Shown: in pieces, positions 28,196 through 44,010 of the stretch
Numbering within the stretch: position 1 is the stretch's first letter
How the letters are laid out: each line of letters opens with the position of its first letter
Source of the DNA: Phycisphaeraceae bacterium
Lineage (GTDB): Bacteria; Planctomycetota; Phycisphaerae; Phycisphaerales; Phycisphaeraceae
Direction: 5' to 3'
Length of the DNA stretch: 64,000 nucleotides
Assembly: GCA_020849625.1 (NCBI GenBank)
Contig: JADLFV010000109.1
Coordinates: 1 to 64,000, forward strand
Notes under the pieces: model-generated
The model's database searches: none
Seen by the model: the letters and a program-made list of their open reading frames with translations, nothing else
Told to the model about the DNA's origin: nothing
Program-made: the position numbers and the translations under genes

Positions 28196-28993
28196 TCAGA
28201 TTGTTGTGCTGCGCGCATGATCAGCAGCCAGCAGCGCCGCGCCCAATGCGCCGGTCAATTGCGGTTCGGGTGACAGCGCCAGCGGATGATCGATGGCTTC
28301 ACTGAGCACGCGCCGCATGCCGCGGGTCCGCGCCACACCGCCGGTGAACACAACCGGGCAGGTCAGACGTCGGCCGGCCATGGAGGCGATACGCCGGGCG
28401 ATGGCCAACTGCACGCCGGCGGCAATGTCGCAGGGTGCTTGACCGCCGGCCAGCAGGCCGATGATCTCCGTCTCCGCGAAGACGGCACACATGCTGGAGA
28501 TCGTGGCCGGTTGCTTGCTGCCCTCAGCCAGTTCGCCAAGCTCGTTCAGATTGACGCCGAGTCTGCGCGCCACCAGCTCCAGGAAGCAGCCGGTCCCTGC
28601 GGCGCAGCGATCGTTCATGGTGAAATCCTCAACACGTCCCTGCGCGTCCAGGTGAATCACCTTCGAGTCCTGGCCGCCGATCTCGATGATGGAGCGCGTG
28701 TTCGGCAAATGCTTCTGCACGCCGCGGGCATGGCAGGTGATTTCGGTGATGGCCTTGTCAGCGAAATCAAGCAGGTGACGAGCGTAACCCGTGGCGACGA
28801 CGAAGCCCACGTCCTGCATCGTGTGCCCGGCCTCCTGCAAAACACGATCCAGCACCCGCTGGGCGTGGGCGGCCTGATCGGGGCTCGAATCTTCCAAATC
28901 ACTGGCCAGCACGCCGGGTTCCGTCCCATTGTCAGTTGACAACAGCACCACCTTGACGGCTCGTGACCCGGCATCGATACCTGCAACAATCAT
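28196..28993 (-). CDS. BadF/HgdC-type ATPase, activator of a 2-hydroxyacyl-CoA dehydratase-like enzyme
   Basis: A 265-residue ASKHA-fold ATPase. GIDAGSRAVK is phosphate loop 1, IIEIGGQDSK and GGVA the other nucleotide motifs. C130 (NDRCAAGTGCF) and C169 (SSMCAVFAETE) are 39 residues apart, the spacing of the two cysteines that hold the dimer-bridging [4Fe-4S] cluster in HgdC. It therefore should drive ATP-dependent one-electron reduction of the partner reductase. It is last in a five-gene operon, its ATG overlapping the previous stop (ATGA), and would serve either the dehydratase-like pair or the double-cubane protein or both. Confidence 0.9.
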   Translation of the reverse strand: MIVAGIDAGSRAVKVVLLSTDNGTEPGVLASDLEDSSPDQAAHAQRVLDRVLQEAGHTMQDVGFVVATGYARHLLDFADKAITEITCHARGVQKHLPNTRSIIEIGGQDSKVIHLDAQGRVEDFTMNDRCAAGTGCFLELVARRLGVNLNELGELAEGSKQPATISSMCAVFAETEIIGLLAGGQAPCDIAAGVQLAIARRIASMAGRRLTCPVVFTGGVARTRGMRRVLSEAIDHPLALSPEPQLTGALGAALLAADHARSTTI

Positions 28994-30369
28994 GATCGCC
29001 TCCGGGTATGCACGATTTCCATCAGGGCTTCCAGGCGCGTCCGCAGCGCAGGCTCCACCGTATCACTGATCGGCGGCACTTCAATTTCCAGGACGGGCAG
29101 CCCAAGCTCTCGTCTGATCATCTTCCCGATCACGTCGCCCTCGTAAGCACAATGGCTCGCCCCCGGAATGCGGCTGATAATCACTGCTTCACTGCCGAAA
29201 TCCTTCGCCTGTTGACACGCGCGCTGTCCGCGATCGCCAACCGTGCCCACCATTGGATCGCTCAGGGCACAGCGGGCCAATGCCTCGAAAGGCTCGAGAT
29301 CCTGGGGGATCGGCTCCAGCGCGTGACAGAACATGTAGTCGCTGCCGGCGATGCGGCCGCCCACCTTCTCCAGCAGGTTCATCACACGCAGGTCGGCCAC
29401 GGGATTGATCCAGAACACCCGCACCGCATCCTTCTCCAGGACACCCACACCTTCCTGCGCCCGCTGCTGCACCTCGTCCAGCAACGCCTCCAGCACGGCC
29501 AGCGACTCCGGCTGATCCGAGCAGAAGTGGATGGCCAGCATTTCCGCAATCAACATCTCGAGGGCCGGCAATGGACAGGGATCAACCGTGTAAGCAAGCC
29601 GGCGCAGTTCGTGGAGCGTTTGTCGCACTTTGTTGGCTTGTTGAAAGCCGCGTTGCAACCGGGTCGCATCGAGGCGCTGGCCGGTCAACTGCTCCAAGGC
29701 TCGGGCCACGCGACGCAGCTCTCGGCTCACGAATGCCACCTGCTGCGGCGACACCGTGAAACCCGTCGGCAGCAACACGGTCGGCTCTCCGGGCGCGGGC
29801 GAGCGCCTCGGCGGCATCTCCCACCAGACGATCGGATGACCAAGTCCCTCGATCCGCTGGGCAATGGCGGAAAAATCATCACACACCGCGCCCACGCTGC
29901 ACAGCAGCATGTCGGGGATGGGAAAATGATTGCCCGTGACAAATGCACCGGCCATGGCCCGCACGGGGCAGAACGATTCATCCAGTCCCAGCGAATCCGC
30001 CACGCGCAACAGTTTATCACTGTGCCGCATGACGCAGGGTGTCCACCACGCGCCGTCGGGATAGAAAGCCACGACGTTATCGAGGGCATAAGCCAGCACC
30101 GGCACGGTGCCCAGGTCTTTCATCGTGCCGACGATGCACTTGCCGGCCATGCGGGCGTCGTGCAGCCGATCTTCTTCGCTGAGCAGAAAATTCCACAGGC
30201 GCAACGCAGCCGGCGAGTTGTCGAATTGCAACTCGCACAGGCGCAGGTCGCCATCCTGGACGTGGCGGCCGAGCGGACCACCGTAGGAAGGCTCCATCAT
30301 GCCCGCGCGGCAAAGCTCGCCATGGCGGCGATCCCACTGCTGCAGCGAGATGACGGCCGGGGCGCCCAT
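28990..30369 (-). CDS. 2-hydroxyacyl-CoA dehydratase-like subunit (HgdB/BcrB family)
   Basis: The 459-residue protein resembles the D-component/benzoyl-CoA reductase subunit family: G-T-M-K-D-L-G near residue 80, the GNHFPIPDMLLCSVGAVCDD segment, the linker helices and the late VISRIPGASHCAYEGDVIGKMI with DTVEPALRTRLEALME at the end. Several cysteines (in CPVRAM, LLCSVGAVC and SHCAYEG) could bind an Fe-S cluster. It lacks obvious CoA-pathway neighbours, so the substrate is unknown. Its start shares one base with the preceding stop (TGATG), and its stop overlaps the activator start, implying stoichiometric co-translation. Confidence 0.75.
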   Translation of the reverse strand: MGAPAVISLQQWDRRHGELCRAGMMEPSYGGPLGRHVQDGDLRLCELQFDNSPAALRLWNFLLSEEDRLHDARMAGKCIVGTMKDLGTVPVLAYALDNVVAFYPDGAWWTPCVMRHSDKLLRVADSLGLDESFCPVRAMAGAFVTGNHFPIPDMLLCSVGAVCDDFSAIAQRIEGLGHPIVWWEMPPRRSPAPGEPTVLLPTGFTVSPQQVAFVSRELRRVARALEQLTGQRLDATRLQRGFQQANKVRQTLHELRRLAYTVDPCPLPALEMLIAEMLAIHFCSDQPESLAVLEALLDEVQQRAQEGVGVLEKDAVRVFWINPVADLRVMNLLEKVGGRIAGSDYMFCHALEPIPQDLEPFEALARCALSDPMVGTVGDRGQRACQQAKDFGSEAVIISRIPGASHCAYEGDVIGKMIRRELGLPVLEIEVPPISDTVEPALRTRLEALMEIVHTRRRS

Positions 30370-31361
30370 CAGTGCAGCATCTCCATGAAGGCGGCAATCC
30401 GTCCCAGCGCACGTTGCGGGGCACTCGCATCTACGTCGAGGTCAAGGTCAAGCACGGGAACACAGGCCGAGGCTTTGATCCGAGCCACCTCCGCATGCCA
30501 CAGATCGCACCAGAGGTTTCGTCGCAAAATCAGACCGCGCACGTGGCGATGCGCCATGCGCTCGTGCAGCCAGTGAAACAAACCGTCATTGGGCCGCTGG
30601 CGAACGTGCGGCATAGCCAGATAGGCCGCGGCCAACGCTTCCAGGGGATCGTCAGCCAGCAATTGCGCGTCGAAGGGCCTCGGCAACCCGCGCTCGCCGT
30701 AGTCGGTGGCGTCCAGCACCACGCGGCCTCCGTGCTGTTCGATTGCGTCGTACAACCACCACTGATAGCGCGGCACTGTCGAGCCGAGCAGGGCGATGGG
30801 GGTATGGGAGGCTGACTCATCCGTGGCGTGATCCGGCGCGGCAGGTGAGTCATCTTCGGTCATGTCCCCGTGGAGTTTTGCAACTGCATCAGCGTGTGGT
30901 CGGCCGCGCAGGTCATCGAACATGGCACGCATGGCCTGACGCTCGCGGTCGTAATCCATCATGTTATGTCGCAGTTGCTGCGGCGTGGGCGATTGGCCGC
31001 CGATCTGTTCCAGGAAGCGTCCCAGGCGGAGCAATTCATCACGATAGCACTGTCTGGCGGCGCTGGTCTGCCACGTGGCGGGGACATGAAACAACAGCAC
31101 CGGCGGCGAGGAAGGATCGATCAACCATTCGCTGACGCGGCGGATCTGGTCACAGACGGCAGCCACCACGATCCCCACCACATCCCGGCGGCTGGATACT
31201 TCCGCCACGAACGCCCGTGCGCAGGAGCAGCAACCGTCTTGGGAAACACCCTCACGCGTTGCCGCATCAGAGATCCGCAACGTCGGCCGCCACGGCTGCA
31301 ACTGATGCGCGGCGATCCACTCCGGCGGAACGTATGCCGAGTTGTAGCCGACGCATGGCAT
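30369..31361 (-). CDS. 2-hydroxyacyl-CoA dehydratase-like subunit (short paralog)
   Basis: This 330-residue protein is a shorter relative of the same family, read from the ATG at 31361 (MPCVGYNSAYVPPEWIAAH, the typical Y-x-P-x-E-W/I-I entry). Cysteines in DGCCSCARAF, AAVCDQIRR and LWCDLWHAE occupy the places of the three cluster-binding cysteines. An Asp/Glu-rich linker (about 170-200) interrupts the fold. With its 459-residue neighbour it probably makes a heterodimer like HgdA/HgdB. It starts 13 nt after the double-cubane gene's stop. Weak ribosome site. Substrate unknown. Confidence 0.7.
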   Translation of the reverse strand: MPCVGYNSAYVPPEWIAAHQLQPWRPTLRISDAATREGVSQDGCCSCARAFVAEVSSRRDVVGIVVAAVCDQIRRVSEWLIDPSSPPVLLFHVPATWQTSAARQCYRDELLRLGRFLEQIGGQSPTPQQLRHNMMDYDRERQAMRAMFDDLRGRPHADAVAKLHGDMTEDDSPAAPDHATDESASHTPIALLGSTVPRYQWWLYDAIEQHGGRVVLDATDYGERGLPRPFDAQLLADDPLEALAAAYLAMPHVRQRPNDGLFHWLHERMAHRHVRGLILRRNLWCDLWHAEVARIKASACVPVLDLDLDVDASAPQRALGRIAAFMEMLH

Positions 31362-31374
31362 GACAGTCTCGGGA

Positions 31375-32595
31375 TCAGGTGTGGGCGGTCTGAGGCCGAC
31401 TCTGGACCGTCTCGAACAACGCTTCAATGCGGACGGCGATGCGGGCGCTGTCGGCGGGTGCGTAATCGGTCATGATGCGCAGGTAAGGCAGGCCCAGTTG
31501 CTCTTCGGCCAGTTGTTTGACCAGGGCCGACTCGATGTCGTATGTCAAACAACCCTGCCAGATCAATTCGATGACGCACCGAGGGCGATACGCGCGCGTC
31601 AATTGCCGCAGCAGGTCGAAGCGGTTCGTGTTGGGGGTCATCACCGAGCAGGGCAGATGGAAGTATTTGGCTGCGATGGCATCGATGGGATCACCGCCAG
31701 TGGCGACGTCCTCGGTGATTGGCTTTAGCCCGGTGCAGTTTTCCATGGCCACCACGCAACCGCCGTGGCTTTCGATCAGATCGATGACCCGCTCCGCTCC
31801 ATGGACGGTGGGCACGCCGGTCATCAGCACGCGCACAGGAGACGGGGCAGTGTGTGATTGTTTGTGGTCACGCAGATGCTGGAGGATCTGTTCGTAGGCC
31901 TGCAGGTCGGAGCCTATCCCGCTGATGCTGCTCTTGAGGTTCAGCAGTTGTCGGCCGGTCAGTGGCGGGTGCTCGCGCCGCATCAGTTCCGCCAGTTGTC
32001 GCCGCAGACTGCGCTCGCGGTTCATCAACGTGATCGCCTGGCGCAGCTTCTCGTCGGTGATCCGCACGTTGAATCGCTGCTCCAGTTCGGTGCGAAACTT
32101 GACCAACTCGGCCCTCCAATGGAGCAGGGCGTCGGGATCGTTCGGTTTCTGCGGCAGCTCCAGGATGTAGACCGGACGCTGCTGGGCTAGCAGTTCGTAC
32201 ATCTTTTTCTTGGCGTCGCAGGTGGTCTCAGCCACGATCAGGTCCGCCATCTCCTGGAACGGATTGTTCTTAAGCAGGTGATAGCCGAACGTGCTGCGGA
32301 TCAGCGGACAGATGCCCGGCGAGAGCACGGTCTCCGCGGCTTCCGCGGTCTTCTGCGAACCACCGCACAGGCACACGGGCACCGCGCCGGCCGCCATGAT
32401 CAACTCCCGTGGCGTGAACTCGCACATGATGCCCACGATCGGCTTGCCTTGCTCCTTGGCGCTGCGGGCGTAGCTCAGACAGTGCTCGATCATGTGGTCA
32501 AAGTGAGACAGCAGCCCGGCCGCGCTGGCTGGGCAAGGCGTCTTCGTGCTGCCACAACAGGTGTCCTCGGCGGAGCCGGTGCATGGTTCATTCAA
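31375..32595 (-). CDS. Double-cubane-cluster-type anaerobic reductase (2-hydroxyacyl-CoA dehydratase superfamily)
   Basis: A 406-residue protein like the DCCP/YjiM group: VGIMCEFTPRELIMAAGAVP with CLCGG, then C96 (GICPLIRS), C126 (ETTCDAKKKMYELL) and a second set at about C287, C316 and C349 (IWQGCLTYDIES). This two-fold three-cysteine pattern fits the [8Fe-9S] double cubane. Such proteins carry out ATP-driven low-potential reductions with a BadF-type ATPase. An added N-terminal tail is cysteine-rich (PCTGSAEDTCCGSTKTPCP). The start is TTG 32595 with GGGAGG 8 nt before; it overlaps the methyltransferase stop (TTGA). Reduced substrate unknown. Confidence 0.8.
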   Translation of the reverse strand: MNEPCTGSAEDTCCGSTKTPCPASAAGLLSHFDHMIEHCLSYARSAKEQGKPIVGIMCEFTPRELIMAAGAVPVCLCGGSQKTAEAAETVLSPGICPLIRSTFGYHLLKNNPFQEMADLIVAETTCDAKKKMYELLAQQRPVYILELPQKPNDPDALLHWRAELVKFRTELEQRFNVRITDEKLRQAITLMNRERSLRRQLAELMRREHPPLTGRQLLNLKSSISGIGSDLQAYEQILQHLRDHKQSHTAPSPVRVLMTGVPTVHGAERVIDLIESHGGCVVAMENCTGLKPITEDVATGGDPIDAIAAKYFHLPCSVMTPNTNRFDLLRQLTRAYRPRCVIELIWQGCLTYDIESALVKQLAEEQLGLPYLRIMTDYAPADSARIAVRIEALFETVQSRPQTAHT

Positions 32596-33407
32596 GGGGC
32601 GACCTCCCTTTTTCGAGCAATGAATCGACCTTGGATGAGCTTTCTGTCGTGGGCCAGTTGACGGACGAAGTGCAGCTCAACGCCAAGCTGGGCCAGCATG
32701 GATTGATCGAAGCCGATCAACTGGAGGGCGTCAAACGTGAGTTGCTTTTCGACCATCTGGATGTAGAGATCGGCGTGTTCAGGGAATCGCCCCGTGTCGG
32801 CCGCCTCGATCACATGGCAGCCGGCATCCTGAAGCAGGCGGCGATAATCCTGCAGCGAGGCCAATGAAGGGAATTTCATGAATGACAGGAAGCGCTTGGC
32901 CTGCTCGTCGTTCAGCGGGCTTGGTCCTTGGCACCAGTCGGTGAACGCGATGACGCCACCGGGTCGTACCAGTCTTGCCGCCTCGGCGATCAGTGCGGGC
33001 TTATCCGCCACGTAGCACCAGGCGTCCTCACCCCAGACGAAGTCAACAGCACCGCCAGGCAGGCCCGTGTCGATCGCTTCGGCCAGCACGAATTCGATGC
33101 GGGTGTCCAGTCCTTCAGCTTGACAGCGACTGCGGCCGAGATCCACCCTCTGTGCGGTGGCGTCCACACCCTGCATCGCAGCCACGTTGCGGAAACGGAC
33201 CAGAAACCGCATGCCCGCGCCGGTACAGCAGCACAAGTCCACCCCGCGACTGCCTGTTTTGATGTGCGCTCGCTCCGCCAGATCCTGCGATGAGCACAAG
33301 CCGCCGATGTGAATCTGTTCGCCCATGAGCAACTCCCACAATCGACCTTCTGCACCGCTGTAAACGCGTTGCACATCGGCCAACGTGATCGTGACGAGTT
33401 GATGCAT
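32592..33407 (-). CDS. Class I SAM-dependent methyltransferase
   Basis: The 271-residue protein is a Rossmann-type methyltransferase: motif I reads GVDLCCCTGAGMRF, with three consecutive cysteines where G-C-G is usual, then GVDATAQRV, the FVLAEAIDTGLP acidic loop, FVWGEDAWCYV and LVRPGGVIAFTDW. The ATG at 33407 has GGGAGG in front. It leads the operon with the double-cubane and dehydratase-like proteins, overlapping the next gene by 4 nt, so a joint pathway is likely. The cysteine-rich motif and context would suit a thiol, metalloid or selenium substrate, but that is a guess. Confidence 0.75.
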   Translation of the reverse strand: MHQLVTITLADVQRVYSGAEGRLWELLMGEQIHIGGLCSSQDLAERAHIKTGSRGVDLCCCTGAGMRFLVRFRNVAAMQGVDATAQRVDLGRSRCQAEGLDTRIEFVLAEAIDTGLPGGAVDFVWGEDAWCYVADKPALIAEAARLVRPGGVIAFTDWCQGPSPLNDEQAKRFLSFMKFPSLASLQDYRRLLQDAGCHVIEAADTGRFPEHADLYIQMVEKQLTFDALQLIGFDQSMLAQLGVELHFVRQLAHDRKLIQGRFIARKREVAP

Positions 33408-33512: not shown

Positions 33513-33562
33513 CAATGCTCAACAGTCAGGAATGGCTCCATCAGCAACGAAAGGGGGTACCC

Positions 33563-34972
33563 GTGAAACGTTCGCAAAAGTGGGACAGATTTGTCCTCGC
33601 AGCGGCGCTCGTGTCACTGTGCCTGTGTCCGGTTCCGGCCCGGGCGGATGAGCCGGCAGGCGGTGACGGCACGACCTGGCTCAGTTACTGCCAGAGCAGC
33701 GACACCAACTCGCTATTGCGATATGTGAGCCGTCAACAGTTAAAGATCGAAAAGGATCGCCCGGCCGATCTGGCATTGCCCGCGGCGCTGGGTGAGCAAG
33801 TGCAGGTCACCCGATGGACCACGCCCATGGACGCGGCGGGGTTCCGCCGGGTTGCCTTGTCGCGCAGCGCCGCCAGTGACCTGTGCGACCAGTTGGTGAT
33901 CGACAGCAACGGTGACGGCCGCCTGGACGACGAAACGATTTGCCAGCCGCATGACCAGCGGCAATACGGCTCGGGCCAGGGCCAGACGATGTTCGGCCCC
34001 GTCGCCATGCACTTCGACAGCGAGGACGGCCCGATCCTCTATCACCTGAACTTCACGGTTTACAGCAGCGGTCTTAACGAGGATTACTACGTGATGGCCA
34101 CGACCGCCTGCTGGTATCAGGGGACCGTGGTCCTCAACGACAGGCCCGTGACGTGCCAACTGATCGACTACAACGCCAATGGCACGTTCAACGACGTCTG
34201 CGACCAACAGGAGTCAAGCTACGCATCGGCCGACCGTGTGCGGTTCACCGACAATGCCGAGATCGAGCCGATGTTCGCCGGCCGGTACGTGCGTGACGGA
34301 CAGCAGTTGTACGAGTTCAGCGCGGCCAAAGATGGGGCCTACGTGACGATTCGTGAAGCTGAGGGCCCTGCCACCGGCTTCATCAAGCCGCAGGACGGTT
34401 TTTATCAAGTCAAGGTCTATGGCCCCCAAGGCTCCTTTGTGATCTCGAAGGAAGACGAGCAGCAGGTGCCCGTCGGCCGATACAAGCTGGCATCGTGGCA
34501 GCTCCAGCCCACCCCCGTCAGCGGAAAGCAATGGCAGTTCACGGGTGCAGGCTTTCCCGAGCAAAGCGGGGTGGACGTTGCCACCGATGCGGTGGTCGAG
34601 TTGAACCTGGGCGGGCCATGGACAGCGAAGTTGGAGGATCAGGTTCGCAATCGCCAGCACACGTTTAATCAAGTGGTCATCGGCCGTTACGGCGAGCATG
34701 TGAACGTCGCGTACGCCGACGGCAGTCAGCCGCCGGCCCCGCGCCTGCGCATCGTCAGCGATGACGGGAAATACGACAAGACCTTCAAGTTCGAGTATGG
34801 CTGAGGCGGCACCTGTTCGCTCTCATGGCGAGAGCCCACCAACGTCAAAGGACCCTTCACCGCCACGCTGCTGCTGGATTGTCCGGTTGAGTTGAAGCAG
34901 GAGCCGCAGAAGATCGGCCAAGTGACTGATGCCGATAGTGCGGCTCCGCGCGCCGCCAAGGCCGGCCAGTGA
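33563..34972 (+). CDS. Candidate new selenoprotein: secreted protein with in-frame TGA (Sec414)
   Basis: The GTG start at 33563 gives a signal peptide (cleavage near ARADE) and a beta-rich protein with two calcium-loop-like segments (DSNGDGRLDDE at 114-124, DYNANGTFND at 202-211). The frame meets TGA at 34802 but continues for 55 well-formed codons to TGA 34970: FKFEYG-U-GGTCSLSWREP, then VKGPFTATLLLDCPVELK. The extension keeps normal codon usage and a U-x3-C redox-type pair. I recall secreted planctomycete proteins with Cys in an E-Y-G-C-G-G-T-C context, which would be Cys homologs, but this was not searched. A hairpin starts 14 nt after the TGA, and selA, selB, selD and tRNA-Sec are in the same 10 kb. 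Function unknown; probably extracytoplasmic redox. Confidence 0.75.
34819..34835 (+). promoter_or_regulatory. Candidate bacterial SECIS stem-loop
   Basis: GCTCTC-ATGGC-GAGAGC: perfect 6-bp stem, 5-nt loop with GG. The stem begins 14 nt after the in-frame TGA (34802-34804) and the loop 20 nt after, within the range known for bacterial SECIS elements read by SelB. The first two loop bases are A and U, not the usual G. Confidence 0.5.
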
Positions 34973-35059: not shown

Positions 35060-37453
35060 ATGAAATTGGCTCATCTGTTGATGGTCAGCTTCCTCGTGCT
35101 GATCACGATCACCGCGCTTGTGTTCGCCCAGGAGCAGGCTCCGCTGCCGGTAGCCCTGGATGGCAAGGTCGTCAACACGCTCGGTGCACCGGTTCCCGAA
35201 GCGGACATCGTCGTGTACGGGGCCCGCCAGGATAACTTCGTCGGCTGGATCAACACGTTGCTGGCTCAGGCCAAATCAGACAGCGAGGGGCAATTCCATA
35301 TCGAAGCCCCCAATCTTCCTGATTACGACCGCGTCCTGGTGGTGTCACGGCATGACGGACTTGCCCTGGGATCGTGGAACGGGGCCATGGCCGAGTTGCG
35401 CTACCCGGTGATGCTGCGTATGGACGAGCCGCAGCAGATCAGCGGCGTGGTGGTTGACGTTTCCGGGCAGCCGGTGGCCGGGGCCACGATCAAAGCGATG
35501 CTGCAGTGGCACACCGACGGCCGGCCGCACGTCGTGGTGGGAGACAAGTTGATTCCGGAACTGATGGTCAACAGCGATCAGCAGGGCGGCTTCGTGATCA
35601 ACGCGGTGCCCAGGGGTGCTTTGGCATCGCTTGCAGTCACCGGCCGGGGATTTGCCGGCATTGTCTGGCCCAACAGGACGCCCAGTATCCCCGCTGGATC
35701 GCAGGATACTTGCATCGAGTTAACCAGGGAGGCGACCATCAACGGCGTCGTGCAATGTCACGAGCCCGGGCAATCTGTTGCAGGCTTGCAAGTAAGCGCC
35801 CTGTTTGCGACCAGCTTTCTCAACCCCTGCCGGACGACGACAGATGCGGACGGGCACTTCACCGTCACGGGATTGCCCGCGGGCTCGGTGCAACTGGTGG
35901 TGATGTCGGAGGCACAGGACCAGGAACTGCCCCGGGTCGGCCAGGCTGAGGGTTTGACACTCCAGGCCGGCCAGGCGATGGACAATGTCACGATCGAGCT
36001 TCAGCGGGCTGCGCTGATGGTCGTATCGGTGACCAGTTGGAAAGATCAACATCCCCTGGCGGACGCGAAGATCAACGTGCGCGCGGCCAATAACAGCTAC
36101 GGTTTTGCCTGCCACACCGATCCGAATGGCACCGCTCGGATTTTCGTACTGCCTGGAAACTACCTGCTCGGCGCTGAGCATCCCATGTGCTCGCCCACAA
36201 ACAGTCAGCAACTGTGTCAGGCCACACCCGGCCAGACGCAAGAGGTGTCGCTTATATTGACCGACGCCATGATGCTGCAGGGTGAGGTGGTCAATGCTGA
36301 GGGTCAGCCCGTGCCTGATGTGGAAGTCCAGGTGGTGCCGCAAAACGGCGAGCGCTCGGTGCGCACAGATCCGCAGGGCCGATTCAGCATGCGCTGGCAG
36401 CCGGCTGAATGGGTCGAAGCCGGCACGTCCATGCTGGTGGCGCGTCACGAGGCCAGCAACAGCGCCGCCGCGGTCGTGATCGAAGATCCCGCCTTGCCCG
36501 TGAATGTGAAGCTCGAAAGCGCCTGTGCGTTCACCGGCCGCGTGCTCAACGATCAGGACCAGCCGCTGCACGGTGCGAACATCATGCTGATGATTTACGG
36601 CAGTCGCTGGGGCGCACCCCTGAGTGATCAGCGATCGATCCAGACTGATGCGGATGGACGATTCCAGCTTGCCGTGCTGCCGCTGGGCATCGAGTATCAC
36701 ATCACCGCCAGCGCCAACGGTTACGGACAGAACAATTGGCAGCAGGAAGCTTTGGACGGCGGCACAATCGACCTGGGTGAGGTCAAACTACCTCGGGCTG
36801 ATCAGAAGATTACCGGCCTCGTGGTTGACAGTGCCGGCGAACCGCTGGCCAATGTGCAGGTGCAGATCCACGGCGAGCAGCAGCCCTATCGTGATGCCAC
36901 TAGCGACAAAGACGGTCGCTTCACCATCACCGGCGTCTGCCCCGGGGGCGCCAACCTGTATGCCCACATTCAGAATCCATATCGTTACGGCCAGACCTAT
37001 GTGAATGTCGGCGGCGGCGATGAAGTGAAACTCATCGTCTCCTCCAGCGACTTATCGCAAAGGCCGGCCGCCAAGCCGCAGCCCAAGCCGTTGACCGGCC
37101 GGCAACTGCCCGACATGACCACGCTCGGCCTCGAAGCAGCGCCGCAAGGTAAGCCGGTCCTGCTGCTGTTCTTCGACGCTCGGCAGCGGCCGTCACGTCA
37201 CGCAGTCAAGCAGATTCAGGCCCAGGCCGCCGCCTCGACCAGCGCCTACTTCGCTCTCGTGCAGGTGGGACCGGTCGAAGATTCGTTGCTGGAGGGCCTT
37301 CACATCACGCTGCCGCTGGCCAGGGCCACCGAGGCGGTGGATGAAACCTGCCTGCAATGGGGTTTGCCCGCCCTGCCCTGGTACATCCTGGCCGACCCGA
37401 CCGGCAAGGTGATCCTGTCGGATTCGACGTTGACCGCCGGTGCGAAAAAGTAA
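35060..37453 (+). CDS. Secreted multi-domain protein: carboxypeptidase-regulatory-like repeats plus cysteine-less thioredoxin fold
   Basis: The 797-residue protein has a signal peptide (LAHLLMVSFLVLITITALVFA). About six CarboxypepD_reg/CnaB-like beta-sandwich repeats follow, each opening with G-x-V-x-x-x-x-G-x-P-(V/L) and closing with T-D-x-x-G-x-F. The last 130 residues are a thioredoxin-like domain (KPVLLLFFDARQRPSRHAVKQI ... GLPALPWYILADPTGKVI) in which no Cys remains at the usual CxxC site. It is co-directional with, and 87 bp from, the selenoprotein candidate, so the two may work together: one with a redox Sec, the other with a Cys-less redoxin fold. AGGAAGGGG precedes the ATG. Confidence 0.75.
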   Translation: MKLAHLLMVSFLVLITITALVFAQEQAPLPVALDGKVVNTLGAPVPEADIVVYGARQDNFVGWINTLLAQAKSDSEGQFHIEAPNLPDYDRVLVVSRHDGLALGSWNGAMAELRYPVMLRMDEPQQISGVVVDVSGQPVAGATIKAMLQWHTDGRPHVVVGDKLIPELMVNSDQQGGFVINAVPRGALASLAVTGRGFAGIVWPNRTPSIPAGSQDTCIELTREATINGVVQCHEPGQSVAGLQVSALFATSFLNPCRTTTDADGHFTVTGLPAGSVQLVVMSEAQDQELPRVGQAEGLTLQAGQAMDNVTIELQRAALMVVSVTSWKDQHPLADAKINVRAANNSYGFACHTDPNGTARIFVLPGNYLLGAEHPMCSPTNSQQLCQATPGQTQEVSLILTDAMMLQGEVVNAEGQPVPDVEVQVVPQNGERSVRTDPQGRFSMRWQPAEWVEAGTSMLVARHEASNSAAAVVIEDPALPVNVKLESACAFTGRVLNDQDQPLHGANIMLMIYGSRWGAPLSDQRSIQTDADGRFQLAVLPLGIEYHITASANGYGQNNWQQEALDGGTIDLGEVKLPRADQKITGLVVDSAGEPLANVQVQIHGEQQPYRDATSDKDGRFTITGVCPGGANLYAHIQNPYRYGQTYVNVGGGDEVKLIVSSSDLSQRPAAKPQPKPLTGRQLPDMTTLGLEAAPQGKPVLLLFFDARQRPSRHAVKQIQAQAAASTSAYFALVQVGPVEDSLLEGLHITLPLARATEAVDETCLQWGLPALPWYILADPTGKVILSDSTLTAGAKK

Positions 37454-37540
37454 TTGCTGGATTCGAGTCTTCTCGGGCCAACTTTTTCCGGATCGAAAGC
37501 CGCCGATGCGGTAACATGGTTGTGCCGTTGGAGGTCCGAG

Positions 37541-38956
37541 GTGGGTTCAACGATCCAGAAAGACTTGTTGCGCAGCTTGCCCTCGGTCGGCGAATTGTTG
37601 GCCAGTGCCCGGGCAGCGGCCTGGCTGCAACAACAGCCGCAGACGCTGGTGGCGGACTGCCTGCGGGCGGCGGTGGATCAACTGCGACAGCAGATTCTCA
37701 ATGACGGCGGCGGACGATGCGGGCCGCAGCACGTCAACGCCGATGCGGTGCTGGACCGGGCTGAACTTGAGTTGAAGCAGCGCACCCAGCCGCGCCTGCG
37801 GGCCGCCATCAATGCCACCGGCATCATTCTGCACACGGGGCTTGGTCGGGCGGTGCTGCCCGGTTGCGTGGTCGAGAGCATGGCTGCGGAACTGGATGGT
37901 TACGTGACATTGGCGGTGGATCGCCAATCGGGGTTGCGCATCAATCGCGATCAGATGGTCGAGCCGTTGCTGTGCGAATTGACCGGAGCGGAGGCGGCCA
38001 CGGTGGTCAACAACAATGCGGCTGCCACCATGCTCGTGCTCACAGCCTTGGCGGCGGGGCGCGAGGTGATCGTCTCGCGCGGCGAGCTGATCGAGATCGG
38101 CGGGGCGTTCCGCTTACCTGACGTCATGGCCCAGAGCGGCGCGCAGATGGTGGAAGTGGGCACGACCAATCGTACGCACCTGCGCGATTATGAATCGGCC
38201 ATCACCGAGCAGACCGCGCTGCTGTTCCGCGCCCATCCCAGCAATTTCCGAATCATCGGGTTCAGCAGTGCCGTGCCGGTGCCGGAACTGGCTGAGTTGG
38301 CTCATGCCCGGAAACTGGTGCTGGTCGATGACCTGGGGGCCGGTGCATTGATCGGCTTGGAGCATTTCGGTCTGCCGCATGAGCCGACGATGGCTGAGTC
38401 GATCGCAGCTGGTGCGGACGTGGCCTTAGCAAGTGCCGACAAACTGATCGGGGCCGGGCAGGGCGGCATCATCGTGGGCAAGCGCGGGCTGATCGAGAAA
38501 ATCCGCAAACACCCGCTGGCCCGGGCGTTCCGCGCGGACAAGACCTGCCTGATGGCCATGGAGCGCACGCTGCCGCTGTTCCGCGACATCGAGCGGCTCA
38601 AGCGCGATCATCCGCTCTATCGCATGCTGGCCACCCCGATGTCCGAACTGAACCACCGGGCTGAGGCGCTGGCAGCCCAACTGAAGCAAGTTGCACCCGC
38701 AGCGGAGGTCCAGGTCAGCGACGACGTCGGCTACCTCGGGTCCGGCTCACTGCCCACCGAAGCATTGCCCACGCGCGTGGTCACCATTCGCAGCGCAAAT
38801 CTCAAAGCCGATCCCCTGGCCAAAGCGTTGCGATTGGATGAAACCTGTGTATTCACCCGCCTGGCTGGCGACGCGGTGGTCATGGACATGCGCACCATCA
38901 CCGACGCGCAGATCGAGCTTATTGCCGCCGCCGTGGCTCGTGTACTTTCAATGTGA
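37541..38956 (+). CDS. selA: L-seryl-tRNA(Sec) selenium transferase
   Basis: SelA converts Ser-tRNA(Sec) to Sec-tRNA(Sec) with selenophosphate. The 471-residue PLP enzyme shows INATGIILHTGLGRA, VNNNAAATML, SRGELIEIGGAFRLPD, VGTTNRTHLRDYE, FRAHPSNF, DDLGAGAL and the PLP lysine K301 in SADKLIGAGQGGIIVGK. I start it at the GTG at 37541, which has GGAGG 5 nt before and gives the typical N-terminus (IQKDLLRSLPSV); the open frame upstream is unrelated. selB follows after 12 nt. Confidence 0.95.
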   Translation: MGSTIQKDLLRSLPSVGELLASARAAAWLQQQPQTLVADCLRAAVDQLRQQILNDGGGRCGPQHVNADAVLDRAELELKQRTQPRLRAAINATGIILHTGLGRAVLPGCVVESMAAELDGYVTLAVDRQSGLRINRDQMVEPLLCELTGAEAATVVNNNAAATMLVLTALAAGREVIVSRGELIEIGGAFRLPDVMAQSGAQMVEVGTTNRTHLRDYESAITEQTALLFRAHPSNFRIIGFSSAVPVPELAELAHARKLVLVDDLGAGALIGLEHFGLPHEPTMAESIAAGADVALASADKLIGAGQGGIIVGKRGLIEKIRKHPLARAFRADKTCLMAMERTLPLFRDIERLKRDHPLYRMLATPMSELNHRAEALAAQLKQVAPAAEVQVSDDVGYLGSGSLPTEALPTRVVTIRSANLKADPLAKALRLDETCVFTRLAGDAVVMDMRTITDAQIELIAAAVARVLSM

Positions 38957-38968
38957 CCAGCCAACGTC

Positions 38969-40957
38969 ATGGCGCGAAAAAATATCATGCTGGGCACCGC
39001 CGGCCATGTCGATCACGGCAAGACGGCCCTGGTGAAGCTGTTGACCGGCTGCGACACCGATCGCCTGGCGGAGGAAAAACGCCGCGGACTCACCATCGAA
39101 CTGGGTTTCGCTCCCTGTCGCATGGCGGACGATCGCATCGTGGGCATCGTCGACGTCCCCGGGCATGTCTCGTTCATCCGCCAGATGGTGGCCGGGGCGC
39201 ACGGCGTTGACGTGATGATCCTGGTGGTCGCGGCAGACGACGGCGTGATGCCGCAGACGCGCGAACACCTGGACGTACTCACCTTCATGGGCGCCCGGCA
39301 CGGCGTCATTGCCCTGACCAAGATCGACATGGTCGATGCGCAGATGCGCGAGCTGGCCGTGCAGGATGTGCAGCAGTTCGTGCAGGGCACATTCCTGGCC
39401 GACGCGCCAATCTGTCCGCTGTCCAACATCACGGGCGAGGGATTCGATGGTTTCTTCGAGGCACTCGGTCAACAGGTACAGGCGTGTCAGCCGCGCGTGA
39501 CACATGGACCGTACAGGCAGTGGGTCGAACGTTCGTTTACAGCCCACGGCTTTGGTGTGGTGGCATCGGGGGTGCCATGTGCCGGGCGGGTGCAGGTGGG
39601 TGATTGCCTGCGCGTGCTGCCGGGCGATCGCCGCGGGCGGGTGCGATACCTACAGGTTTACGGTGAAAATTCCGATGCAGCCCAGGCCGGCGAATGTGTG
39701 GCGGTCAATCTGGCGGACCTCGAACTTGACGACACGCCGCGCGGCGTGCTGCTGACTGACTCGCCGACACTTGGTCTGGTGCAGCGCTGTGCGGTGCGTC
39801 TGCGCCTGCTGGATCGCATGCGCCGGCCGATCAAGGATGGTGCGGAAGTTCACCTGCATGTGGGCACCGCCCATTGCCAGGCAACGCTGGTTCCGTTGGA
39901 AGCTGATCCGTTGGCGCCGGGCGCTGACACGCTGGCACAACTTCGCCTGGATCGACCGCTGCCGCTGGCGCCGGGGGACCGCTTCGTGGTGCGCTCTCAT
40001 GTGGAGGAGGAGGGCGGGCTGACCACCATCGGCGGCGGGCGCGTGCTTGACACCTCGGAAAGAAGATTCCGTCGCCAACGTGTGGAAACGATTTCACCAT
40101 TGCTGGAGCGGGAAAAAACAATCGATGACCCCCCGTTGTGGTGCCTGACTATGCTGATCGAGGCCGCCGGGCCGCGGACGGTGCAGGAGCTGGCCTCTGC
40201 CGCGCATCTGTTGCCCGATGAGGCAGACACCCACGTGCGCCGACTATGCGAACAGGGACAGGTGGTGCTGCTCGACAATAAACGCTTCATGGCCCAGCGC
40301 ACGATTGACCAGACCATGATGCGCATGGCCGATCACCTTAAGCAGGCGCACCAGGCTCATCCCGAGCAACTGGGGGTGAACGCCGGGGAACTGCTCCAGG
40401 CGCTGGCGTGCGATACGGCGGTTTTCGATGCGGCGGAGTCTGACCTGATCAGGCGCAGTATGGTGGTGCGACAAGGTGAACTGTTGGCCTTGGCCGAGCA
40501 TCGGCCGCGCATGGATGAGGGCGAGCGACGCCTGCTCGAACAACTGGCCGAAGCGTTTCGTAAGGATCACAGCATGCCGCGGCGTCCGGCCGATCTGGCC
40601 GAAGCGCTGAAACAGCCGGAGAAGAAGGTGCGGCAAATGATCCAGGTGCTTGCCGATCGCGGCGATCTGGTTCACCTGAGCGAGCAGATCTTCATGCACC
40701 GGGATGCGGTGGCTGCCGCCGAGGCTGTGGTGAGAACGCTCTTTGCACAGGCGGATTCCGGGCATTCCGCAACTTCCGGCACTTCCGGGGGCGGGGGTGA
40801 GGGGCGATTTACCACGGCTGAGTTTCGCAATGCCTTGGGTGCCAGTCGCAAATATGCCATTCCATTGCTGGACCATTTTGACCGCACGCGGTTGACGATC
40901 CGTCACGGCAGTGTGCGCACACCGGGGGTTTTGGTGCGAAACAATTCGCCACAATAG
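38969..40957 (+). CDS. selB: Selenocysteine-specific elongation factor
   Basis: A 662-residue translational GTPase that carries Sec-tRNA to UGA codons marked by a SECIS. GTAGHVDHGKT (9-19), DVPGHVSF, and TKID are the G motifs; then come EF-Tu-like domains II/III and a C-terminal array of winged helices ending in the typical FTTAEFRNALGASRKYAIPLLDHFDR that binds the SECIS. A low-complexity stretch before the last winged helix (HSATSGTSGGGG) is encoded by tandem TTCCGG units including one CTTCCGGGGG, and looks inserted. It lies between selA and selD. Confidence 0.95.
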   Translation: MARKNIMLGTAGHVDHGKTALVKLLTGCDTDRLAEEKRRGLTIELGFAPCRMADDRIVGIVDVPGHVSFIRQMVAGAHGVDVMILVVAADDGVMPQTREHLDVLTFMGARHGVIALTKIDMVDAQMRELAVQDVQQFVQGTFLADAPICPLSNITGEGFDGFFEALGQQVQACQPRVTHGPYRQWVERSFTAHGFGVVASGVPCAGRVQVGDCLRVLPGDRRGRVRYLQVYGENSDAAQAGECVAVNLADLELDDTPRGVLLTDSPTLGLVQRCAVRLRLLDRMRRPIKDGAEVHLHVGTAHCQATLVPLEADPLAPGADTLAQLRLDRPLPLAPGDRFVVRSHVEEEGGLTTIGGGRVLDTSERRFRRQRVETISPLLEREKTIDDPPLWCLTMLIEAAGPRTVQELASAAHLLPDEADTHVRRLCEQGQVVLLDNKRFMAQRTIDQTMMRMADHLKQAHQAHPEQLGVNAGELLQALACDTAVFDAAESDLIRRSMVVRQGELLALAEHRPRMDEGERRLLEQLAEAFRKDHSMPRRPADLAEALKQPEKKVRQMIQVLADRGDLVHLSEQIFMHRDAVAAAEAVVRTLFAQADSGHSATSGTSGGGGEGRFTTAEFRNALGASRKYAIPLLDHFDRTRLTIRHGSVRTPGVLVRNNSPQ

Positions 40958-41046
40958 GATTGTGCCGCGCAGCCTGTGCAGTAGAATGGACGGGTTCGCA
41001 GCGAGGTGTTTCACGCCCGAAGCCCGCAGCCTGTCCGGTGCAAAAC

Positions 41047-42612
41047 ATGACCGTGGATATCCAAAAACGCCGTCGTGTCATGGCTCGTTCCCGTGAACTT
41101 GGTCACTGCATCTGCGATCCGCGGAGACCGTGCCCGTGTGACGTGTTCACTTCGCAGGGCATCTGTCCCTGTGCCGGCGAGCGGCCGGATCCGGTGCCCG
41201 CCGAGCAGGTGCGCTTGACGGAATTGGTGCGCAATGCCGGCTGCGCATCCAAGATCGCGCCGGGTGATCTGGAGGAGATCCTGTCGCGCCTGCCAGCGGT
41301 GGATGATCCACGCGTGCTGTGCGGCGTGGCGGCTGGTGACGATGCGGGGGTGTATCAGCTTGACGGGAAATGCCTGGTGCAGACGGTGGATGTCATGACG
41401 CCGTGCGTGGATGACGCCCGCACCTTCGGACGGATTTGTGCCGCCAACTGCGTGTCGGATGTGTATGCCATGGGTGGCACACCGTTGACCGCGCTGAGCA
41501 TCTTGGCGTTTCCCAGCGAAACGATGTCGAGCCAGATCATGTACGAAATGCTGGCCGGGGCAATGGAAGTGCTGGCTGAGGCCGAGGTGGCGCTGATCGG
41601 CGGGCACAGCATCAAGGACGAGCAGATCATGCTCGGCTTCGCCATCACCGGCACCGTCGATCCGCAACACGTCACCGAGCGCGGCAAGGCGGCCGTGGGC
41701 GATGTGCTGGTGCTGACCAAGCCGCTGGGCAGCGGCGTGCTCAACTTCGCCAAACAGATCGGCCGCGCTCATGAAGCGGGACTGCGCCAGGCCGAGCAAT
41801 CGATGGCCATGTTGAACCGCGTTGCTTCACAGGCTATGACCCGCTGCAATGCCACGGCCTGCACCGATATCACCGGCTTCGGCCTGTTCGGGCACCTGGC
41901 GGGTATGGTGCGGCACTCGAAGGTTACTGCTCGCATTGACGTGGAGCATTTGCCGGCTTTCGATGGGGCACTGGCATTGCTGGCTGGCAACGTCATCCCC
42001 GGAACGATTGAACGCAACAGTGAATACGTCGGCGATGACCTGGTGCGTGAACCGGGCACCGATGAATCGCACGTGCTGCTGGGGCTGGACGCTCAGACCT
42101 CTGGCGGCCTGCTGATCGCCATCAGCCCAGCGCGGGTGGACGAACTGTTGAATCTGCTGGCCGAAGGCGGTGTCAGCGGCCACGTCATCGGGCGCGTCAG
42201 CGAAGCTTCGCAGGGTCGTATCATCGCTGCCGGCAGTGGGGCGGTGGTGAGTGAGAGAGTGATTGCTCGTCGTGAACCTGCGCCGGCAGTCGTGCCGGAA
42301 GCGGCCGGTACGAGCATTGCGGAGGCTCGGCGTTCGTTCGGATCGCTGATGCGCAGCACGGCTCAAGCGGGAGCGGTGGATCAGAAGACCAAGGCACTGA
42401 TCAATATCGCGCTGGTGACCATCCAGCGTTGCGGGCCATGTTTGCTGTCGCATCTGGCCAAGGCGCGCACATTGGGCATTGCGCAGGAGCAGATCGACGA
42501 GGCCATCTGGTGCGCCATCGCCATGGGCGGCGCGTGCGTCAAAGTGTTTTATGATGAGCTGATGCAGTCGCAGGCCGAAGCCGACAAAGGCACTGGCAAA
42601 TCCTGCTGTTGA
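41047..42612 (+). CDS. selD: Selenide, water dikinase fused to a Cys-rich N-terminal and an AhpD-like C-terminal domain
   Basis: The 521-residue protein makes selenophosphate. The central AIR-synthase-like core has the active pair C66/K69 (NAGCASKI), GDDAGVY, LVQTVDVMTP, NCVSDVYAMGG, GGHSIKD and the GFGLFGH motif; catalytic position 17-equivalent is Cys, not Sec. Two additions are unusual. Residues 20-45 carry six cysteines as C-x-C, C-x-C, C-x-C (CICDPRRPCPC, CPCAGE). The last 100 residues form an AhpD/carboxymuconolactone-decarboxylase-like helical domain with CGPC (462-465), H469 and a KSCC end. Both suggest an attached redox function. I start at ATG 41047; ATG 41080 is an alternative. Confidence 0.85.
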   Translation: MTVDIQKRRRVMARSRELGHCICDPRRPCPCDVFTSQGICPCAGERPDPVPAEQVRLTELVRNAGCASKIAPGDLEEILSRLPAVDDPRVLCGVAAGDDAGVYQLDGKCLVQTVDVMTPCVDDARTFGRICAANCVSDVYAMGGTPLTALSILAFPSETMSSQIMYEMLAGAMEVLAEAEVALIGGHSIKDEQIMLGFAITGTVDPQHVTERGKAAVGDVLVLTKPLGSGVLNFAKQIGRAHEAGLRQAEQSMAMLNRVASQAMTRCNATACTDITGFGLFGHLAGMVRHSKVTARIDVEHLPAFDGALALLAGNVIPGTIERNSEYVGDDLVREPGTDESHVLLGLDAQTSGGLLIAISPARVDELLNLLAEGGVSGHVIGRVSEASQGRIIAAGSGAVVSERVIARREPAPAVVPEAAGTSIAEARRSFGSLMRSTAQAGAVDQKTKALINIALVTIQRCGPCLLSHLAKARTLGIAQEQIDEAIWCAIAMGGACVKVFYDELMQSQAEADKGTGKSCC

Positions 42613-42624
42613 CAGGCAACGCGA

Positions 42625-43488
42625 TCAAGCTTCGGTAGCGGAGGCAGGCAGGTGCTTCTGCGGCGATTCCGGTTCGCGCCCGGCGATGGTCACCGTGATG
42701 GCGGGGCAATTGGTGCATTCCAGGCAGCGCACGCACGAGCCGTTGTTGATCGACTGGTCCAGCTTCACGTCGTACTTGCACCGGCTGCGGCAGAGATTGC
42801 ATTCCGTGCAGCGGCCGGCGTTGTAGTGCAGGTAAAGCAGGCTGCCTCGATTGAACAGGGCAAAGATCCCGCCCAGCGGGCAGAGCACCCGGCACCACGG
42901 CCGATAGGTGAACAGGGCCAGACCCAGAACCAGGATCGTCACCGTGATCTTGATGGTGTTGGGGATAAACAACTGGCCGCGATAGATTGACTGGCCCATC
43001 GCCCCTTCAAGGGCCCCGGCTGGACAGACGTTGCAGAAAAACAGCCAGTGCTCTGCGCCCAGCAGTACCGGCACGATCAGCACCAATCCGATCAATGTCA
43101 GGTATCTGCCATGGCCCATCCACGACGGCAGCGAAAACTTGGGCGTGGGAATCCTGGCTAGCAGATCCTGCATGAAGCCGAAGGGACATGCCCAACCACA
43201 TACGGCCGTGCCCACCAGCGCCCCGACCACCACCAGCACGCCGATGGCCATCAGCGGGATCACGTGCACGGCCGCGAACTGAGCCATTAGACCGATAGGG
43301 CACGCCACTGTCGCCAGCGGGCAGGCATAACAGTGAAAGACACAGCCGGGCACCGCGTGCCAACGCAGCATCAGGGGATCGAGCCACACCGCTAGAAAAC
43401 CGGTCTGCACCCATGGTCGGATGCGGGCAAGGTTCCAGCGTCGCTGTTTTGTGATATTTGCGATCATTGGTCTGGCCATGGCACGCAT
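42625..43488 (-). CDS. Polyferredoxin-type membrane protein (NapH/YccM-like 4Fe-4S protein)
   Basis: A 287-residue membrane protein with about five helices. It has cytoplasm-facing cluster motifs CGWACPFGFMQDLL and CRVLCPLGGIF, cysteine groups CVFHCYACPLATVACP and CNVCPAG, and a C-terminal 2x[4Fe-4S] ferredoxin-like part (CTECNLCRSRCKYD, CVRCLECTNCP). This family passes electrons from quinol or ferredoxin across or along the membrane. It could supply low-potential electrons to the reductase operon 9 kb away, but that is inference. It converges on selD (12 bp apart). The start is uncertain among ATGs at 43488, 43479 and 43467. Confidence 0.8.
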   Translation of the reverse strand: MRAMARPMIANITKQRRWNLARIRPWVQTGFLAVWLDPLMLRWHAVPGCVFHCYACPLATVACPIGLMAQFAAVHVIPLMAIGVLVVVGALVGTAVCGWACPFGFMQDLLARIPTPKFSLPSWMGHGRYLTLIGLVLIVPVLLGAEHWLFFCNVCPAGALEGAMGQSIYRGQLFIPNTIKITVTILVLGLALFTYRPWCRVLCPLGGIFALFNRGSLLYLHYNAGRCTECNLCRSRCKYDVKLDQSINNGSCVRCLECTNCPAITVTIAGREPESPQKHLPASATEA

Positions 43489-43916: not shown

Positions 43917-44010
43917 CGGAGGTGCATGGGAATCGAACCCACCCGGGACTCATTCAAGCCCCACACTGGTTTTGAAGACCAGGAGCGTCACCAGACCGCC
44001 GGGCACCTCC
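43917..44010 (-). tRNA. selC: tRNA-Sec (anticodon UCA)
   Basis: Read on the minus strand: 8-bp acceptor stem GGAGGTGC/GCACCTCC with discriminator G, anticodon stem CTGG/CCAG around CTTCAAAA with anticodon TCA, a long variable arm (GTGGGGCTTGAATGAGTCC region) and a GGTTCGATTCC T-loop. The 94-nt length, UCA anticodon and 8-bp acceptor identify selenocysteine tRNA. CCA is not encoded. It completes the selA/selB/selD set 1.3 kb away. Confidence 0.92.

Follow-up and report, generated by a model that had tools for sequence, protein, structure and literature searches.

We analyzed a window of 64,000 nucleotides from a Phycisphaeraceae bacterium (phylum Planctomycetota; contig JADLFV010000109.1, positions 1 to 64,000), in which five genes on the minus strand (28196 to 33407; Table 1) encode a methyltransferase (MT), a double-cubane-cluster protein (DCCP), two further proteins of the HGD-D family (HGD2 and HGD3), and a BadF-type ATPase (ACT). 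The operon is conserved across families and phyla, beyond chance, and its association with selenium genes is well supported. It probably converts selenium compounds within the cell by so far undescribed chemistry. An earlier note, made from the letters of the window, had described this five-gene operon, and all five open reading frames were found in place. Three of the four junctions overlap as it had stated, by TTGA (MT/DCCP), TGATG (HGD2/HGD3), and ATGA (HGD3/ACT), and the DCCP and HGD2 genes do not overlap. HGD2 starts with ATG, and an alternative TTG upstream at 31427 is possible. The three HGD-D proteins matched the Pfam family with E values of 1.5e-94, 3.2e-33, and 1.1e-40, and a search of the 4.8-Mb source genome gave no further HGD-D gene.

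The recurrence of the gene set was examined on two scales. Among about 85,000 species genomes scanned, 259 MT relatives were found, and neighborhoods were taken for the best 80 of the 259, several of the fetched stretches ending at contig ends. All five genes were on the fetched stretch for 35 of these best 80 relatives, and 22 of the 80 showed MT with neither DCCP nor HGD3 on the stretch. According to the record titles, the 80 came from Planctomycetota, Verrucomicrobia, Lentisphaerae, Sumerlaeota, Hydrogenedentes, Deltaproteobacteria/Myxococcota, and a few others. Co-occurrence at the phylum level was determined by searches of 392 Planctomycetota genomes. HGD3 orthologues with 34 to 64% identity were present in 18 genomes, and an independent search with the MT alignment returned 19, consisting of the same 18 and one genome that is 72% complete (P = 3.8e-30). 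MT and HGD proteins were shared by 18 of the 19 genomes. In the Planctomycetota neighborhoods, MT, DCCP, HGD2, HGD3, and ACT stood together in mostly the same order. Identities of the standard form to the window were about 50 to 61% for MT, 55 to 66% for DCCP, 28 to 41% for HGD2, 44 to 64% for HGD3, and 47 to 60% for ACT, and divergent forms of the operon showed lower identity. HGD3-DCCP fusion proteins of 865 to 866 residues were encoded in two loci (L046 and L047), suggesting that DCCP and HGD3 pair. The earlier note had named a set unique to this genome and random as grounds for refutation; the set recurs across phyla and is neither.

The selenium genes selD, selA, or selB were physically linked to the operon across lineages: of 48 loci with HGD3, 26 had at least one of them on the same stretch. 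In 18 of the 48, ACT is followed on its own strand, 110 to 353 bp downstream, by the start of a SelD homologue. Genes for tRNA-Sec were detected on 11 of the 35 loci scanned. At the genome level, every one of the 19 MT genomes (P = 1.2e-4) and of the 23 DCCP genomes (P = 1.6e-5) has SelD, versus 247 of 392 in the Planctomycetota background, with both P values uncorrected for kinship. Seven of the 23 DCCP genomes have no MT. A DCCP gene lies about 220 to 280 bp from selD in three genomes (G012, G313, and G062), and a second DCCP and ACT pair precedes selD in locus L035. Among MT genomes without the cluster beside MT, SelD was present in 16 of 17 and any HGD-D protein in 8 of 17. In the phylum of the deltaproteobacterial genome G399, SelD was present in five of five MT genomes versus 119 of 188 (P = 0.10). 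The earlier note had asked whether sel genes co-occur with the set and had tied the reductases to the neighboring selenoprotein candidate; the sel-gene linkage, together with the divergent adjacency of the selenoprotein gene, supports this connection.

The protein families and cysteine sets agree with the ATP-dependent, low-potential reductase set that had been proposed. DCCP scored 395.4 bits against a curated cut-off of 350 for the double-cubane model NF040772 and matched PDB entries 7yyl/6eno with an E value of 3.5e-56. All six cysteines of the [8Fe-9S] cluster (C58, C96, C126, C287, C316, and C349) are present and are invariant in about 60 relatives, and their spacing matches that of BzdN (36/73/100/263/293/327; PMC11971306). 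The published cluster ligands are six cysteines in BzdN and three in BzdO (PMC11971306). HGD2 and HGD3 scored 69.8 and 60.9 bits against the cut-off of 350 and have about three of the six cysteine positions. Mapping to the BzdN/BzdO ligands showed that HGD2 keeps C45, C70, and C285, and HGD3 keeps C134, C163, and C407 in equivalent or near-equivalent positions together with invariant C112 and C283; each is predicted from this mapping to carry a three-cysteine [4Fe-4S] site. The AF2 model of HGD3 (pLDDT 94) gave Z scores of 36.5 to BzdN and 35.6 to DCCP, with HadC within 35 to 36. The earlier description of both HGD-D proteins as HgdA/B-like is refined: HGD2 and HGD3 are nearer in sequence to DCCP than to HgdA/B. 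ACT scored 247 bits for the activase model TIGR00241 (cut-off, 125), and its cysteine pair (C130 and C169) is invariant.

Known reductase systems resemble this set. Like the DCCP/DCCP-R system (PDB 6eno and 7yyl), the window has a full DCCP relative with six cluster cysteines and a BadF-type ATPase partner; however, the known DCCP is a homodimer, whereas that of the window is accompanied by a methyltransferase and two additional HGD-D subunits. A double-cubane subunit, a three-cysteine [4Fe-4S] subunit, and a BadF ATPase are also combined in class I benzoyl-CoA reductase, BzdNO(PQ), whose BzdN fold is matched by HGD3 (Z = 36.5). In contrast, the operon is without CoA-ester pathway genes and the BzdO catalytic histidine, and it encodes three HGD-D proteins rather than two. 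Double-cubane proteins reduce hard substrates in vitro, and their physiological function is not known (PMC11971306). TudS, a desulfidase that carries a [4Fe-5S] cluster, belongs to this superfamily as well (PMC11971306), which makes selenium abstraction plausible.

MT combines a familiar fold with an altered active site. Its AF2 model (pLDDT 94) gave Z scores of 27 to 30 over the whole chain to PMT/SDMT/AtmM/RebM-like enzymes. In PDB profile searches, phosphoethanolamine N-methyltransferase (PMT) was matched with an E value of 6.7e-25 and ArsM with 2e-4; the Z scores of the MT model to PMT were 27 to 29. MT resembles PMT and the sarcosine-dimethylglycine N-methyltransferases (SDMT) in fold and in the alignment of Asp128 and the N-terminal tyrosine, but identity is about 16 to 22%. 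Of the catalytic dyad Tyr19-His132 of PfPMT, the tyrosine is kept (Tyr16), but His132 is replaced by an invariant Tyr132. PfPMT Asp128 is also kept, Leu131 is replaced by an invariant Cys131 that immediately precedes the residue aligned to the catalytic histidine, and the glycine-rich motif I is changed to CCC; the unusual DLCCCTG motif pointed out earlier is indeed seen in the sequence. Judged by alignment and fold, MT is a new family on the PMT fold, and no curated NCBIfam equivalog covers it. These changes replace the known catalytic dyad and bring soft ligands to the cofactor site, which might be expected of an enzyme acting on selenium or a metalloid.

The genes beside MT were also compared in other loci. 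When the reductases are not beside it, MT is directly followed by an SMR exporter in four loci (L077, L127, L128, and L129), and an EamA exporter adjoins it in six further loci. An SMR pump would be well matched to a cationic product, for example trimethylselenonium. In two loci (L048, 3485 to 11708, and L049, 4771 to 13083), a hybrid cluster joins MT and HGD genes in one operon to genes for a corrinoid protein, for URO-D methyltransferases with an H-x-C...C zinc pattern, and for RACo; it is possibly an intermediate with methyl-selenide clusters. A DUF3034 protein with a signal-like N terminus adjoins MT in 13 loci (L066, 10834 to 11835; L121, 5543 to 6490; and 11 more), and a literature search on DUF3034 and selenium gave no match.

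From these families and cysteine sets, and because the genes remain linked to sel genes across loci and co-occur with them, we propose that this is an operon of selenium metabolism, in which an ATP-driven reductase supplies selenide to SelD and MT acts as an Se-methyltransferase; this is the leading explanation, at somewhat below an even chance. By analogy with BzdNO and DCCP, ACT would deliver very-low-potential electrons to DCCP, to be stored at its [8Fe-9S] cluster and handed on to HGD2/HGD3. At the three-cysteine [4Fe-4S] sites of the latter, the free iron may bind a selenium compound, which would be reduced to hydrogen selenide. SelD, encoded nearby, would convert hydrogen selenide to selenophosphate for selenocysteine. 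MT would transfer a methyl group from S-adenosylmethionine (SAM) to a reactive selenium species, which could cap excess selenide for export or belong to the handling of methylated selenium. The fuller assignment is a so far undescribed three-subunit double-cubane/[4Fe-4S] ATP-driven selenium reductase that would provide SelD with selenide freed from oxidized, elemental, or methylated selenium and would have a dedicated cysteine-rich, SAM-dependent Se-methyltransferase as its partner; it is possible and is offered tentatively.

Several points weigh against a role in selenium metabolism. The evidence is computational, and the enzymes whose solved structures are nearest to that of MT have amines or natural products as substrates, none selenium. 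With 63% of background genomes carrying it, SelD is common anyway; the genomes also share ancestry, and an anaerobic lifestyle alone could favor both the operon and SelD. In addition, MT occurs in some genomes without the reductases, so the two halves need not share one substrate, and the substrate ranges of SMR and EamA exporters are wide.

Adjacent to the operon is an island of selenium genes (Table 1). The selenoprotein gene is divergent from MT, with starts about 110 to 200 bp away, and reads through its UGA into GGTC-SW..P. In about ten other cluster loci, relatives lie upstream of MT with the UGA at the same position and a conserved UGGTC tail. Folding of the SECIS-like hairpin in 12 loci showed two pairs changed on both sides, with GCUCUC/GAGAGC in the window versus GUACUC/GAGUAC in most others. 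YG-U-GGTC-SW-R selenoproteins with the hairpin were observed in the window and in L035, L064, L072, L073, L078, L084, L094, L096, L100, L112, and L118. Relatives were found in 14 of the 19 MT genomes, a count from MT genomes only and with no background set, and most have a single in-frame TGA; the five genomes in which none was found are all under 90% complete. The family had no NCBIfam match. Several paralogues occur per genome, and a Sec-free version (FEYGRNWMC) is encoded in L094.

Table 1. Features of the selenium-linked region of the window
Feature	Position	Strand	Basis and remarks
ACT	28196-28993	minus	BadF-type ATPase/activator; BcrAD_BadFG PF01869, 5e-59; TIGR00241, 247 bits
HGD3	28990-30369	minus	HGD-D subunit with N-terminal extension; Pfam
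HGD2	30369-31361	minus	HGD-D subunit with three cluster cysteines (C45, C70, C285); Pfam and Cys mapping
DCCP	31375-32595	minus	Double-cubane-cluster protein; HGD-D; NF040772, 395 bits
MT	32592-33407	minus	SAM-dependent methyltransferase, PMT/SDMT fold; motif I DLCCC, WGEDAWCYV; Methyltransf_11, E 3.9e-13
Predicted selenoprotein	33515-34972	plus	Start 33515 or 33611; UGA 34802-34804; motif YG-U-GGTC-SW
SECIS-like hairpin	34819-34835	plus	Just 3' of UGA; folding in 12 loci
selA	37454-38956	plus	PF03841, 1.2e-129
selB	38969-40957	plus	Assigned by sequence and sel-operon position; homologue beside selA elsewhere
selD fused to C-terminal CMD/AhpD-like domain	40960-42612	plus	TIGR00476, 333 bits; ahpD_dom
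NapH-like membrane ferredoxin	42625-43467	minus	Scores under the NapH cut-offs; homologues also at several cluster loci
tRNA-Sec	43917-44010	minus	ARAGORN

The SelD of the window and that of L035 (7846 to 9456) share a Cys-rich N-terminal extension (CICDPxxPCPCD) and the fused CMD/AhpD-like domain, and the window SelD has cysteine at the usual Sec position. Between the selenoprotein gene and selA, positions 35060 to 37453 encode carboxypeptidase-regulatory repeats and a thioredoxin-like C terminus without the CxxC cysteines; relatives occur in L037, L103, and L133. The NapH-like membrane ferredoxin recurs near the cluster and selD. Selenocysteine within MT, DCCP, or the HGD genes was considered and rejected, as in-frame stops were seen only at gene ends, in SelD, or in a DCCP extension; the last is a poorly aligned N-terminal extension in L036/L087, one contig in two copies. 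Within the family and order of the window, SelD is found in few relatives and is mostly absent, which suggests that the sel island was gained by transfer, perhaps as a unit.

Other roles for the operon were weighed against the same evidence. In a reductive salvage pathway, MT would methylate a selenoether; the resulting selenonium cation leaves more readily, and the ATP-driven reductases would cleave C-Se bonds and free selenide. The near-perfect co-occurrence of MT and reductases in Planctomycetota fits such a pathway, as does the nitrogenase-like MarHDK, which cuts C-S bonds of methylthio compounds (cited in PMC10418091). The corrinoid, URO-D, and RACo genes joined to MT and HGD genes in L048/L049 resemble the methyl-selenide clusters (type I mlp clusters/SdmABC) of that paper and of work cited in it, which also share with the operon a selenium link and DCCP and sel neighbors. 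However, in the window and most loci the set is without corrinoid and URO-D genes, MT is of the SAM type, and HGD2/HGD3 are not mentioned in the accessible part of PMC10418091. The components of a type I mlp cluster (corrinoid protein, Mlp2/Mlp3 URO-D proteins, and corrinoid activase) were absent from the gene set of the window, and such genes in L048/L049 were assigned by gene type rather than Mlp subfamily. Demethylation at the expense of SAM would be costly, and MT beside exporters, away from the reductases, fits a product made for export; salvage is considered unlikely.

The cluster might instead build or mature something for selenoproteins such as the UGGTC family, or make a selenium-containing cofactor, rather than supply selenium. 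The presence of UGGTC selenoproteins in most MT genomes and the divergent gene in the window speak for this role. In contrast, MT also occurs in the five incomplete genomes where no such selenoprotein was found, and the selenoprotein looks exported, whereas the reductases look cytoplasmic; we regard this role as quite unlikely.

Handling of organometals or metalloids (As, Hg, or Te) with the help of a selenoprotein, as in selenocysteine-assisted organometallic (SAO) operons, finds some support in the cysteine-rich cofactor site, the DMT-type exporters, and weak profile matches of MT to ArsM-selenoprotein fusions (49 bits). However, every ArsM-type score was far under its cut-off, the PDB profile put PMT far above ArsM, and no ars genes were seen among the neighbors examined, leaving this role improbable. 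The identification of MT as ArsM itself was rejected on scores of 31 to 37 bits for PRK11873 (cut-off, 263). A comparably low probability is given to MT as an ordinary small-amine N-methyltransferase of the PMT/sarcosine type, linked to selenium through an anaerobic lifestyle only. The nearest folds and profiles are PMT and SDMT, and quaternary cations are cargo of SMR exporters; however, the catalytic histidine of PMT is tyrosine in all members, motif I is CCC, and in many loci selD adjoins the operon directly, which goes beyond mere presence. Finally, a role in fermentation or in the breakdown of aromatics, as a 2-hydroxyacyl-CoA dehydratase or benzoyl-CoA reductase, had already been judged unlikely in the earlier note and is very improbable despite the identical Pfam families, as the scores are far under the cut-offs (TIGR03190, 85 of 454; TIGR02263, 63 of 421; HadC, 58 of 700; the HadBC and Bzd/Bcr models generally), the BzdO-type catalytic histidine three residues after the second cluster cysteine is gone (C163-D-D-F in HGD3 and C70-D-Q-I in HGD2), and the surroundings of the set showed neither a CoA ligase nor beta-oxidation genes.

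A link between DCCP and selenium was previously suspected in print. DCCP and CoA-activase genes were provisionally linked to selenium in PMC10418091 and PMC5322559, and the latter (Lin et al. 2015) places DCCP-like subunits and CoA activases near YedE/YedF/SelD. These gene types and their selenium-gene link resemble the operon, but a methyltransferase and the HGD2/HGD3 pair are not mentioned in the accessible part of that paper. The earlier note knew of no described pathway with this set, and the literature searched, which did not cover every relevant selenoprotein paper, contained neither a characterized pathway nor a description of the MT family, the HGD2/HGD3 pair, or the five-gene operon.

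The operon offers a concrete proposal for double-cubane proteins, namely the reduction of selenium for SelD, based on linkage in several phyla and the strict co-occurrence of DCCP and SelD among the 392 genomes. The MT family is a conserved marker of selenium-using bacteria. If true, selenium reduction would be the first physiological role for a double-cubane protein.

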